Below, piece by piece: positions 47,911 to 51,266 of a stretch of 64,000 bases of DNA. Each line of letters starts with the position of its first letter. The stretch's first letter is position 1. Under the pieces are notes generated by a model. That model made no database searches, had not been told where the DNA came from, and worked only from the letters and a program-made list of their open reading frames with translations. Made by a program: the position numbers and the translations under genes. This stretch comes from Bacteroides sp. AN502(2024) (lineage in GTDB: Bacteria; Bacteroidota; Bacteroidia; Bacteroidales; Bacteroidaceae): assembly GCF_041227145.1 (NCBI RefSeq), contig NZ_JBGFSP010000003.1, positions 2,480,001 to 2,544,000 on the forward strand, written 5' to 3'.

Positions 47911-48141
47911 ACGAATAAAATAATTTAATTATTGTTTAGAGTTTATATGTGAGACAAATATAGGGAAATTTGCACAATTCCGAAAGATTTGGAAAGAATA
48001 TAAAAGGTAAGCGATATGAATTTTATAAGGTATAGCCATAGCAAAGGAAACAAATGGATGCATTCAGGAGTTCCCTTCTATTTTTGTAAATGTGTACTAT
48101 CAGGAAGACAGCCTTATCATAAAGTTTAAAAAGTACAAAAC

Positions 48142-48159
48142 ATCTGCCATCTGCAACAA
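48142..48159. repeat. Left 18-bp inverted repeat of the primase element
   Basis: ATCTGCCATCTGCAACAA; an exact reverse complement is found at 50809-50826. The two copies enclose 2.7 kb with the repeats and the primase gene. Confidence 0.8.
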
Positions 48160-48196
48160 AACCATCATACATCGCTGAATAATAGGGATTTATGTT

Positions 48197-48243
48197 GTTG
48201 CAGATACCTGTTGCAAATGGTTGCAGATAAAGTTGTCTGCAAC
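48197..48243. repeat. GTTGCAGAT motif cluster, left side
   Basis: Direct copies at 48197-48205 and 48220-48228 and an inverted TCTGCAAC at 48236-48243; the last two form an 8-bp hairpin with an 8-nt loop. The same motif lies inside both terminal repeats and five times on the right side. Confidence 0.7.
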
Positions 48244-48304
48244 ATACGATTCAAATACCGGATTAGTACAGTTTTTTGCCTACACACTGCTCTATGTTTA
48301 TGCC

Positions 48305-48461
48305 TTGGAACAAAGTGTTTTTGTGCTTTGGAACAAAGTGTTTTCGTACCTTGGAACAAAGTGTTCCACCGTGTTGGAACAAAGTGTTTAGTGCTTTGGA
48401 ACAAAGTGTTTCGCGCCTTGGAACAAAGTGTTTCGCGCCTTGAAACAAAGTGTTTCAAGCA
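48305..48461. repeat. Iteron-like array, seven 22-23 bp units
   Basis: TTGGAACAAAGTGTT begins at 48305, 48328, 48351, 48374, 48396, 48418 and 48440 (the last as TTGAAACAAAGTGTT), spaced 23, 23, 23, 22, 22 and 22 bp, close to two helix turns. Six to seven variable bases separate the conserved cores. Two decayed TTGAAACA copies follow. The array ends about 150 bp before the primase gene and resembles plasmid iterons. Confidence 0.88.
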
Positions 48462-48613
48462 ATTGAAACATCTTGAAACAAATTGCAGGAGTGAAACGGC
48501 AACTGAAACTACAACAAAAAGAATGCAAAGAAATAGACAAAGCATACGAGTTTACTTGTGAGATTGAAAAAGTATAGCTATCTTAGTAGAATATTTATAT
48601 TAAAAACAATTTT

Positions 48614-50710
48614 ATGAAAATTACCCAATTAAGAGACAAAGACAAAACTACTGCCCTGACCACGATGGACATAGAAACATGGATAGAAAAGACACGAACT
48701 GAAACAAAGGCACGACCGGTTACCGTTTTCAGAGAAACGCTCAAGTATTCCCTGCCCGATGCCCGTAGTTACGAAGCTGACAAATTACCAAAGATCTTAC
48801 CTGCTGCCGAATTCCGCAGAGCGGAAGGTGGTAAACAGATGAAAAGTTACAACGGCATAGTGGAGCTAACCGTTGGTCCGCTATCCGGGAGATCGGAAAT
48901 CGCATTCGTGAAGCAAAAAGCTTGGGAACAGCCGCAAACGTACTGTGTTTTTACTGGTTCCAGCGGACAAACCGTAAAAATATGGAGCAGATTCACCCGA
49001 CCGGACCAATCACTTCCACAAAAAAGGGAAGAAGCCGAAATATTCCATGCACATGCCTATCGGCTAGCCGTGAAATGTTACCAGCCTCAAATACCATTCG
49101 ATATTCGCCCTAAAGCGCCCTCTTTGGAACAATATTCCCGATTGTCCCACGACCCGGAACTCATGTACAGACCGGATTCCGTACCGTTTTATCTGTCGCA
49201 ACCTGCCGGAATGCCCGAAGAATTATCTTATCGGGAGGTGGTACGTTCGGAGAAATCACCGCTAACGCGCGCTGTCCCGGGATATGATACGAAAAGGGCT
49301 GCCTTCATGCTCTTCGAAGCTGCCCTGAGAAAAACGCGTGAGGAGATTTACGAAGCGGAAGACAATGGCGCACGCCCGATAGGGGAAGATTTCCAGGCAT
49401 TAGTGACGCGATTGGCTGCAAACTGCTTTCATTCCGGAATTCCTGAAGAGGAAACGGTTAAACGTACTATCTTTCATTATTACCTGAATGGACAGGAAGC
49501 TCTTATTCGTCAGATAATCAGAACGGTATATGATGAATGTGAAGGGTTCGGCAGGAAGAACTGCTTAGGAAAAGAACAACTTTTGTCTTTACAGACAGAG
49601 GATTTTATGAGGCGGCGTTATGAATTTCGCTGCAACACACAAATAGGAGAAGTGGAATATCGCGAACGGAATTCGTTCCGCTTTTACTTCAATCCTATCG
49701 ACAAGCGGGTATTGAACAGCATCGCACTGGATGCACAAGCCGAAGGCATTCCATTGTGGGACAGGGACATCAGCCGGTATATCTATTCGAACCGTGTACC
49801 GGTATTCAATCCGTTAGAGGATTTTCTTTATCATCTTCCCATTTGGGATGGTCAGGATCGCATCCGTACCTTGGCGAAAACCGTACCTTGCGGAAACCCG
49901 CATTGGGTAGAATTATTTCATCGCTGGTTTCTGAATATGGTAGTTCATTGGCGAGGTACGGATAAAAAGTACGCGAATAGTGTATCTCCATTACTGGTAG
50001 GTGCACAAGGTTCTCGTAAATCTACCTTTTGCCGAAGTATTATCCCACCTGCCATGCGTGCCTATTATACGGATAGTATCGATTTCTCCCAAAAGAAAGA
50101 AGCGGAACTTTATCTGAATCGGTTTGCGTTGATCAATATCGACGAATTCGATCAGATTAGTGCCACGCAACAGGGATTTCTGAAACATATTCTCCAGAAG
50201 CCTATCGTAAATATCCGCAAACCTTACGGCAAAGCCGTATTGGAGATGCGTCGCTATGCTTCTTTCATCGCCACGAGTAATCAGAAAGATTTATTGACCG
50301 ATCCTACGGGTAGTCGTCGCTTCATCTGCATCGAGGTACAGGGAACAATAGATACCAACCGGGCAATAGACTATGAGCAGTTATACGCACAAGCGATGTA
50401 CGAACTGGATCATGGCGAACGCTACTGGTTTGACCGGAAAGAAGAGCAGTTGATGATTGAAAGTAACCGGGAATTCGAACAAGTATCGCTCGAAGAACAG
50501 TTGTTTTACCGTTACTTCCGCCCGGCTGAAGAGAAGGAAGACGGAGAATGGCTTTCACCGGCAGAGATATTGGACGAAATAGGAAGAAAGAGTGCTATCT
50601 CATTGTCCAACAAGCGGGTAAGTGTATTCGGGCGGGTACTGCGCAAACATGAAATCCCTTCGAGACGGGTAAGGAGTGGTACTGTCTATCATGTTGTCAG
50701 ACTCTCATAA
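48614..50710 (+). CDS. BT4734-like primase N-domain plus VapE/VirE-type helicase
   Basis: A 698-residue protein. Residues about 40-190 match the BT4734/VirE N-terminal (primase-polymerase-like) type (VTVFRETLKYSLPDARSY, AEIFHAHAYRLAVKCYQP). Residues about 395-640 are the VapE P-loop domain: FNPLEDFLYHLPIWDGQDRI, Walker A GAQGSRKS at 463-470, Walker B LINIDEFD at 506-513, then YASFIATSNQKDLLTDPTGSRRF (location about 558-580) with sensor-like Asn and Arg. VapE proteins are replication initiator/helicases of phage satellites and plasmids. With iterons upstream and terminal repeats on both sides, it looks like the only gene of a small replicative element. No integrase or transposase is present. 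Confidence 0.85.
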   Translation: MKITQLRDKDKTTALTTMDIETWIEKTRTETKARPVTVFRETLKYSLPDARSYEADKLPKILPAAEFRRAEGGKQMKSYNGIVELTVGPLSGRSEIAFVKQKAWEQPQTYCVFTGSSGQTVKIWSRFTRPDQSLPQKREEAEIFHAHAYRLAVKCYQPQIPFDIRPKAPSLEQYSRLSHDPELMYRPDSVPFYLSQPAGMPEELSYREVVRSEKSPLTRAVPGYDTKRAAFMLFEAALRKTREEIYEAEDNGARPIGEDFQALVTRLAANCFHSGIPEEETVKRTIFHYYLNGQEALIRQIIRTVYDECEGFGRKNCLGKEQLLSLQTEDFMRRRYEFRCNTQIGEVEYRERNSFRFYFNPIDKRVLNSIALDAQAEGIPLWDRDISRYIYSNRVPVFNPLEDFLYHLPIWDGQDRIRTLAKTVPCGNPHWVELFHRWFLNMVVHWRGTDKKYANSVSPLLVGAQGSRKSTFCRSIIPPAMRAYYTDSIDFSQKKEAELYLNRFALINIDEFDQISATQQGFLKHILQKPIVNIRKPYGKAVLEMRRYASFIATSNQKDLLTDPTGSRRFICIEVQGTIDTNRAIDYEQLYAQAMYELDHGERYWFDRKEEQLMIESNREFEQVSLEEQLFYRYFRPAEEKEDGEWLSPAEILDEIGRKSAISLSNKRVSVFGRVLRKHEIPSRRVRSGTVYHVVRLS

Positions 50711-50719
50711 GCTAAAACA

Positions 50720-50752
50720 GATGTGTTGCAGATACTTGATCTGCAACACATC
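50720..50752. repeat. Perfect 14-bp hairpin with GTTGCAGAT motifs
   Basis: GATGTGTTGCAGAT / ATCTGCAACACATC pair exactly around a 5-nt loop, starting 10 nt after the primase stop. There is no T-run. More motif copies follow at 50750-50758, 50763-50771 and 50811-50819. Confidence 0.8.
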
Positions 50753-50808
50753 TGCAATAGGTATCTGCAACGCTATAAGACATTATATTTCAATTAGATA
50801 CAACGAAA

Positions 50809-50826
50809 TTGTTGCAGATGGCAGAT
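50809..50826. repeat. Right 18-bp inverted repeat of the primase element
   Basis: TTGTTGCAGATGGCAGAT is the exact reverse complement of 48142-48159. It ends 2 nt before the stop codon of the DUF6078 gene. Confidence 0.8.
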
Positions 50827-50828
50827 AA

Positions 50829-51266
50829 TTACCACATATATTCTTCTGTGTAGGAATCGAATGCAGGTTCCTCCATTATTCCTTTCTGACGGAAGATTCT
50901 ACGAATATATTCCTGTTGTTCAGGAGATAAATATTTCTCTTTACGGTAAAAGCGGTAATACATTCCGCGTCCGAAATAGCCAAGCATTTGACTTTTTAGT
51001 TGTTCCGCATCTTTGTGAGGCACGTTGTCCAACAAATGACTGATTCCCCACGCTACGCGTATTTTCTGTATCGACTTATAAAAAGAACAAGCATTTGCAT
51101 CTTCCGGAATACAATTGGGATTTACCACAGACAGAGTGGGATACTGAGCGGTACTATGCACTGCGGCCAAGTGATGCAGGCATGTTTCTCCTTTCGGACA
51201 TTGGTTATTGAAGCAGTGGGTAAAACCGTAGGGCACTGTCTGGTAGTCAAAGTTATCTTCCATCAT
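50829..51266 (-). CDS. DUF6078-type small protein with Cys/His cluster
   Basis: A 145-residue cytoplasmic protein known only as a Bacteroides conserved family (DUF6078, from memory). Near the N-terminus it has HCFNNQCPKGETCLHHLA, a Cys/His cluster able to bind zinc, plus NPNCIPEDANACSFYKS. The C-terminal half is helical and basic (AEQLKSQMLGYFGRGMYYRF, LSPEQQEYIRRIFRQKG). It could be a DNA- or RNA-associated protein; no activity is known. It follows ispG by 47 nt on the same strand. The start could be either of two adjacent Met codons. Confidence 0.75.
   Translation of the reverse strand: MMEDNFDYQTVPYGFTHCFNNQCPKGETCLHHLAAVHSTAQYPTLSVVNPNCIPEDANACSFYKSIQKIRVAWGISHLLDNVPHKDAEQLKSQMLGYFGRGMYYRFYRKEKYLSPEQQEYIRRIFRQKGIMEEPAFDSYTEEYMW

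Follow-up and report, generated by a model that had tools for sequence, protein, structure and literature searches.

The stretch analysed here (the window) is 64,000 nucleotides of Bacteroides sp. AN502(2024), positions 2,480,001 to 2,544,000 of contig NZ_JBGFSP010000003.1. Within it, at about 48114-50855, lies an element in which one gene for a VapE-type helicase is enclosed by inverted repeats made of short words; a previous reading of the letters by themselves (the sequence-only reading) had taken it for a minimal replicon, satellite or selfish element. The features, in window coordinates, are as follows.

48114..48141 (+): probable outermost left end, A/T-rich, ...ATAAAGTTTAAAAAGTACAAAAC; an outward extension conserved among copies by eye, boundary approximate
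48142..48159 (+): left 18-bp inverted repeat ATCTGCCATCTGCAACAA, containing the doubled word ATCTGCC+ATCTGCAACA
48197..48244 (+): inner cluster of words on the left, with GTTGCAGAT and related sequences in either orientation, able to fold (z -3.4 vs shuffles)
48305..48454 (+): seven iterons TTGGAACAAAGTGTT, spacing 22-23 bp
48614..50710 (+): VapE gene, 698 aa, with PF08800 BT4734-like_N, PF05272 VapE-like and PF12990 DUF3874
50718..50754 (+): perfect hairpin with a 16-bp stem, composed of word sequence
50739..50808 (+): inner cluster of words on the right
50809..50826 (-): right 18-bp inverted repeat, exact complement of ATCTGCCATCTGCAACAA
50827..50855 (-): probable outermost right end, also coding the last DUF6078 codons; boundary approximate
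50829..51266 (-): DUF6078 gene (PF19555, four conserved Cys), abutting the right end

The exact 18-bp inverted repeats, the seven iteron-like repeats of 22-23 bp, the single primase/VapE gene and the absence of an integrase or transposase were all confirmed: the gene at 48614-50710 (+) was the sole convincing one between the repeats, and neither type of enzyme was seen between the ends in the list of open reading frames (ORFs) or among the Pfam domains. Two other mechanically listed ORFs (126 and 116 aa) overlie the iteron array and look spurious. The hairpin, given before as a perfect 14-bp one, has a 16-bp stem (50718-50733/50739-50754) and a 5-nt loop (z -8.1 vs shuffles); the "about nine" short repeats resolved into seven exact copies of GTTGCAGAT in the element (starts 48149-, 48197+, 48220+, 50725+, 50739-, 50763- and 50811+), the rest being near-copies seen by eye, and a single exact copy lies elsewhere in the window (22592+). 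When both strands of the 64 kb were scanned with up to 2 mismatches, iteron TTGGAACAAAGTGTT was found at 7 sites, all in 48305-48454, and none outside the array. Similarity between the 18-bp repeats extends inward, forming 78-nt arms that are 72% complementary; from comparison of copies by eye, the unit probably extends about 28 bp past each 18-bp repeat (approximately 48114-50855), its ends not being fixed to the base.

The window repeat is one of a family. Within the 4.8-Mb genome that carries the window, the 17-mer ATCTGCCATCTGCAACA had 39 matches (2 or fewer mismatches), 37 of them exact, and the reversed control had 0. These formed 14 outward pairs 0.4-3.9 kb apart, the window's among them, and a fifteenth pair split to 15 kb; the remaining 9 were single. 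Five pairs delimit gene-less units without interruption, each 415-540 bp long and containing 8-10 words; the iterons within them number 5-7 in three units, 1 in another and 0 in L025. Seven pairs of 2.06-2.17 kb hold a two-ORF insertion sequence (IS), and the 3.9-kb pair holds the two-ORF IS plus a 551-aa ORF resembling a second transposase; IS insertion has made most of the gene-less units longer than the 415-540 bp of the uninterrupted ones. The window pair was the only one with an intact VapE gene between ATCTGCCATCTGCAACA-type ends; contig C9 has a VapE fragment beside a single end.

We examined if gene and repeat occur together across the genus. Exact ATCTGCCATCTGCAACA was present in 2 of 98 other genomes (G012 and G085), and the same two alone had a VapE at least 84% identical to that of the window (a limit set after seeing the list; the window's own genome, which has both by construction, was excluded), the next best being 81% in G030, where the words differ. 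Coincidence of gene and repeat in the same two of 98 genomes has a chance of 1 in 4,753 if kinship is ignored, and kinship is no simple explanation, because the closest searched relative as judged by ispG (G021, 92%; G012, 84%) has neither ATCTGCCATCTGCAACA nor a close VapE. The gene-less unit of G012 has 6 iterons; G085 has two VapE genes, 86% and 84% identical, one (L306) with window-type ends and the other (L309) with a variant word. For the window family, gene and repeat were shown to travel together, as judged by their presence in these sequences.

We interpret the window element, with slightly more confidence than doubt, as the copy that bears the gene in a selfish system of two parts, a VapE gene and gene-less units that retain cis-sites only. 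The first part would be VapE, an AAA+ initiator-type helicase whose primase-polymerase (PrimPol) metal-binding motif I is degenerate; the second would be the gene-less units, keeping ends of a doubled ~7-bp word, hairpin-capable word clusters and, often, iterons. In the sequence of events that we infer, VapE would recognise its own words at paired ends, load as a helicase, either at the ends or in or near the iteron array, and then unwind or copy the unit or expose it as single strands, whereupon host repair or a trans-acting recombinase would reinsert the product elsewhere without obvious target duplication; the VapE gene would mostly stay in place, vertically inherited, as RAYT genes do. The earlier proposal is kept as to a selfish-looking unit, an initiator-type helicase and origin-like iterons, and is replaced as to a lone one-gene element, what was found being a dispersed repeat family. 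Only tentatively, and with less than even confidence, do we suggest that an initiator helicase with a degenerate PrimPol domain itself mobilises the dispersed DNA, the elements being locally replicated or unwound at their word-marked ends, reinsertion being transposase-free and the words changing as fast as the clades of the enzyme split; a trans-acting transposase would make the system an unusual family of miniature inverted-repeat transposable elements (MITEs).

The same genome has a second VapE gene (L039), 54% identical to the window VapE, with ends in CCTATCACC words. Matches to TGTCACCTATCACC there numbered 46 (1 or fewer mismatches) versus 1 for the control, and several may fall in one unit, so that there are fewer units than matches; 6 outward word pairs 147-304 bp apart have a hairpin-plus-word layout, and iteron-like repeats lay near the matches at 9 of 20 loci by strict count, 8 of these with at least 5. 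The exact 14-mer TGTCACCTATCACC was found in 7 of 99 genomes, with 24 copies in the window's own genome, 4 in G092, 3 in G090 and 1 each in four others. VapE neighbourhoods were fetched for 20 of the listed VapE places: near genes 90% identical to that of L039 there were 8 (G090), 7 (G012) and 4 (G085) copies of CCTATCACC, and near the 81% identical gene of G030 there were 4, whereas genes 85-86% identical (G021, G009, G059) had ATCTTTCA instead and no CCTATCACC. Words change faster than the gene, since they differ between VapE still 85-86% identical. The cross-genome comparison for this second family is mixed and speaks neither for nor against a link of gene and repeat.

A third family was found with TTATTGTCACTTGTCAC, which had 10, 18, 24 and 21 matches (2 or fewer mismatches; control 0-1) in four genomes with a VapE clade of 65% identity. 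Gene-less pairs of 856, 856 and 790 bp occur in G190, and one of them has an orthologue of 792 bp in G188; another unit, of 3,402 bp, holds VapE and a divergent HU-HIG gene. Mean pairwise identity of the flanks was 0.88-0.98 in the word, 0.33-0.53 inside and 0.26-0.34 beyond ~28 bp (20 of 23 and 18 of 20 matches kept as terminal type, from the part of the third-family matches that was fetched, with the four G189 rows L279, L281, L320 and L321, which share flanks, retained). The unit seems to have its own ends because the flanks are unrelated beyond ~28 bp from the word. In G189 a 1.3-kb stretch, 97% identical between L279 and L281, has one TTATTGTCAC-family end, and its flank also occurs in L320 and L321; this stretch was rejected as the unit itself, its boundaries being its own.

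For a wider comparison, named genomes were scanned with the single protein, giving 79 VapE loci; of the 70 with full-length VapE, 4 were dropped for short flanks, and both word tests used the remaining 66 (window + 65). An 8-mer on both sides of the gene exceeded all 60 shuffles at 36 of the 66, and a flanking inverted repeat scored above the control 95th percentile at 38. The control for the latter was 126 of 150 random mismatched locus pairs (24 were dropped as too close in identity), one of which scored 894, above every locus, supposedly due to inverted DNA common to both loci, and the cut-off was therefore the 95th percentile (36) and not the maximum. The sequence-only reading had proposed looking for the 18-bp repeat next to other VapE genes; many VapE loci have flanking words, which differ by clade (ATCTGCAA in the window and GM023; elsewhere GCTGTCAC, TATTGTCA, GCCCTCAC, ACCCTCAC, ATCTATCA, TGCTGCCA, CCAGCACA and others). 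Terminal words are frequently doubled in the manner of ATCTGCC+ATCTGCAACA, and the four VapE loci that the scan gave for B. xylanisolvens XB1A have four word types. The system, found in many Bacteroides and some relatives, is real.

Window-clade VapE adjoins ispG in four species (the window, L042, L044 and L045), the left flank being common only with L042, and lies elsewhere in XB1A (L043) and G085 (L306), where a divergent DUF6078 gene is inside the repeats. A constant locus with no empty site had been named beforehand as an outcome that would speak against the sequence-only reading, and what was found lies halfway: past moves of the window-clade unit did occur, as the loci in XB1A and G085 demonstrate, and whole-unit transposition of the window copy as the main mode was rejected, the clade keeping the ispG locus in four species. 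At the ispG site, G001 has kept the iterons and right end with most of VapE deleted, G030 has kept DUF6078 and an end, and G009 and G021 are without VapE and DUF6078, yet have words or ends of other subfamilies by eye (L192:5480-5700 in G021 and L194:7300-7800 in G009; TTATTGTCA; ATGAGAA). The ispG site is possibly an insertion hot spot, or it could represent in-place turnover of words. The comparison with related strains for an empty site gave a divided answer, these two ispG sites not being clean and the unit at G012:C33:52415-52915, which is gene-less, being absent from that place in other genomes: its word was found there in 0 of 11 genomes inspected, the window's own genome included, and in 6 of the 11 (two of which do not differ in this stretch) the same neighbouring genes are separated by no more than a short gap. 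An empty site for L266 in a sister species was rejected, the copy being common to G188 and G189, as was a circular episome represented by contig L046 (4,660 bp), the ends of which have no exact overlap.

Several observations weigh against the two-part system. At least 10 of 19 left flanks in the window's own genome belong to a larger MITE, so the copy number is partly due to another transposase and is not creditable to VapE; 2 of 6 units counted in that genome have few or no iterons (L025 with 0, L029 with 1). No both-sided word was found in 30 of the 66 VapE loci, many of the 66 are orthologues at common loci, and these counts are for that reason not independent. For the second family, G092 has its four TGTCACCTATCACC copies, yet the VapE fetched from it is just 58% identical to that of L039, and G012 and G085 are without exact TGTCACCTATCACC despite their 90% identical VapE, which is flanked by a shorter word. 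For the third, at least 12 of the 20 first-fetched loci have a sister-species partner with orthologous flanks, and recent movement is thus rare. The intergenic DNA at G012:C33 is too diverged to place a base-exact junction, no base-exact empty site was found in the loci compared, and inspection by eye showed no target-site duplication at the ends of the unit itself, which are not fixed to the base.

The larger MITE raises a different explanation, that the gene-less units are ordinary MITEs moved by the transposase of some IS, as the outer MITE itself probably is, with VapE a passenger between one pair of ends. In many copies this MITE encloses the unit together with a 3' piece of the DUF6078 gene; its outer ends are CACGGCTCTTTCCATTTAA, its end sequence is of the CACGGCTCTTTCC type, and 9-bp target duplications were present in L020, L027 and L028 and absent from L021 among the copies looked at. 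Against this, several features would be surprising in a passenger: clade-specific words flank the gene on either side, the second VapE of the same genome comes with a word family of its own, presence of gene and repeat agrees in 2 of 2 other genomes, and such repeats also surround VapE in metagenome-assembled genomes (MAGs) of Tannerellaceae and in a relative of 31% identity. Third-family copies are without common outer flanks, the four G189 rows excepted. We consider the passenger explanation unlikely. The copies captured by the outer MITE are L017, L019-L022, L024, L026-L028 and L031; left flanks outside it include those of the window, L018, L023, L034, L025, L029 and L037, and L025 and L037, with ~100 bp in common outside the repeat, may lie in yet another larger repeat.

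The window VapE matched PF08800 at 1e-43 (Pfam), with a PADLOC PrimPol match too and no NCBIfam match, and its fold resembles the primase-helicase of Staphylococcus aureus pathogenicity islands (SaPI). The helicase motifs (Walker A, Walker B and conserved arginine region) are intact. PrimPol motif I (hhhDhD/E) reads IVELTVGPL, a degenerate form, and in the alignment of 66 of 69 translated proteins (L043, L055 and L093 excluded for stops or length) DxD at this position was seen in none and ExD in a few (L085, L087, L098, L103); the PrimPol domain, assigned to the N-terminus from Pfam, PADLOC and the published motif definition, is probably dead. The ratio dN/dS (nonsynonymous to synonymous substitution) against the window VapE was 0.07 (GM023), 0.04 (L044) and 0.025 (G085), dS being saturated in the L044 and G085 comparisons, and was 0.044 and 0.053 in the L039 clade, with dS >1; from these ratios the window VapE is under purifying selection and kept mostly through vertical descent. 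A role in anti-phage defence was rejected, as the PADLOC matches were confined to a PrimPol model associated with CRISPR and a weak one to DRT, and no structured RNA family of Rfam was found at the gathering score.

Such selection, and loci common across species, would also suit a domesticated host system, in which VapE and an HU-HIG or DUF6078 partner form a chromosomal DNA-binding machine (for replication restart, segregation or regulation) and the repeats are its binding sites; an HU-HIG partner is present in many clades, and copies are intergenic, with no match inside an ORF of at least 100 aa at 17 of 20 second-family loci. We regard this as quite unlikely, given that the word differs while VapE is still 85-86% identical, that matches per genome vary from 4-5 to tens, and that VapE (E<=1e-100), found in 40 of 99 genus genomes, is absent from 59 (31 of 63 of the more complete ones), unlike an essential system.

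The SaPI-type fold and the iterons beside the gene are likewise compatible with decayed origins, left over from plasmids or phage satellites that had integrated and had a PriRep-type initiator; this corresponds to the domesticated origin or minimal satellite of the sequence-only reading. Matches to VapE were obtained by tblastn in 471 of 50,697 phage records, 469 of them <60% identical, and 3 VapE relatives were found among 39 candidate stretches of viral contigs. The best matches in the phage collection were unannotated fecal contigs, window 48120-48620 had no match in 72,556 plasmid records, and the one plasmid record inspected appears chromosomal (priA); a phage or plasmid origin was rejected on these grounds. 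Genes for an integrase, a terminase or a relaxase are absent between the repeats, and the gene-less copies keep paired ends, which makes decayed origins rather improbable in our view.

The two-part system was also compared with known ones, and is none of the kinds tested, each of which fails a defining feature. REPtrons (REPIN-RAYT systems), according to their description (PMC6006769), generally pair each repeat type with a single full-length gene that the repeats flank, with several gene/repeat pairs possible per genome, intergenic repeats and a gene that seems not to transpose as a unit. The window VapE likewise is the one full-length gene of its repeat family in its genome and is flanked by repeats, and two VapE genes there, which also has truncated ones (L040, L041), each have a separate family. 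In place of the HUH-Y1 transposase of REPtrons there is an AAA+ helicase carrying a PrimPol-like domain; and the window-family units, with their paired ends and frequent iterons, are hundreds of bp long and so differ from hairpins of 21-65 nt. Unit ends here are often CTAC..., ~28 bp from the words, and may or may not correspond to the GT[AG]G that REPtrons have at the foot of a short hairpin. Without an HUH enzyme this is not a REPtron; by analogy, the way the VapE system works would resemble one. It shares with SaPI and staphylococcal cassette chromosome (SCCmec) initiators (PriRep1 7PDS, SaPI5 primase-helicase 7OLA/7OM0, Cch2) a primase-helicase initiator with adjacent, putatively bound iterons, and differs in having no integrase, packaging or recombinase genes, in its scattered gene-less copies and in its clade-specific paired ends. 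BT4734 is listed as a family of archaeo-eukaryotic primases (AEP) in PMC5862659; window VapE has the PF08800 domain of such PrimPols, and unlike them lacks a catalytic motif I that fits hhhDhD/E, as do 65 relatives. Walker A, Walker B and the conserved arginine region are as in superfamily 3 (SF3)/AAA+ helicases of VapE type. Gene-less copies share ends with a gene-bearing copy, as in a MITE with its autonomous transposon, unlike which the gene-bearing copy has no transposase, the second gene of relatives being HU-HIG or DUF6078. No description of VapE-linked repeats was found in the literature searched (subscription papers lay outside the search).

HUH transposases already provide examples of dispersed repeat families linked to a single-copy gene; in the present case an AAA+ initiator helicase follows that logic, over a range that, by gene-flanking repeats, includes Bacteroides, Tannerellaceae and a relative farther off in the Bacteroidales. 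Should the repeats be moved by VapE, DNA would be spread in a way that needs no transposase; otherwise they amount to dozens of sites that are candidates for sequence-specific action of a helicase conserved in gut bacteria. BT4734/VapE genes gain partners that can be tested directly, and the matched pairs of protein and word form a natural series.

The partner of VapE depends on the clade, being DUF6078 or HU-HIG (PF18291, Pfam-checked in two proteins), often divergent and between the repeats, as is the DUF6078 gene in L043 and L098. DUF6078 as an essential part was rejected, since it is in or beside some clades only and others have HU-HIG; its fold gave no PDB match at E<=0.001. HU-type proteins bend DNA; whichever of HU-HIG and DUF6078 is encoded with VapE in a given clade may do likewise or have a regulatory part, and an HU-type protein could help to assemble the ends.

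An IS with ends TGTCTTATACGGATTTAGG was repeatedly inserted in these units (L017, L019-L021, L024, L026-L028, L031, L039, L356, L358), at or inside the iteron array in L020, L024, L028 and L039 and beside the array in the others; this IS possibly prefers the units as a target. In L031 (C3:2934050-2949410), the 15-kb end pair, the IS is itself split by a large insertion with ORFs of 892, 855, 436 and 390 aa.

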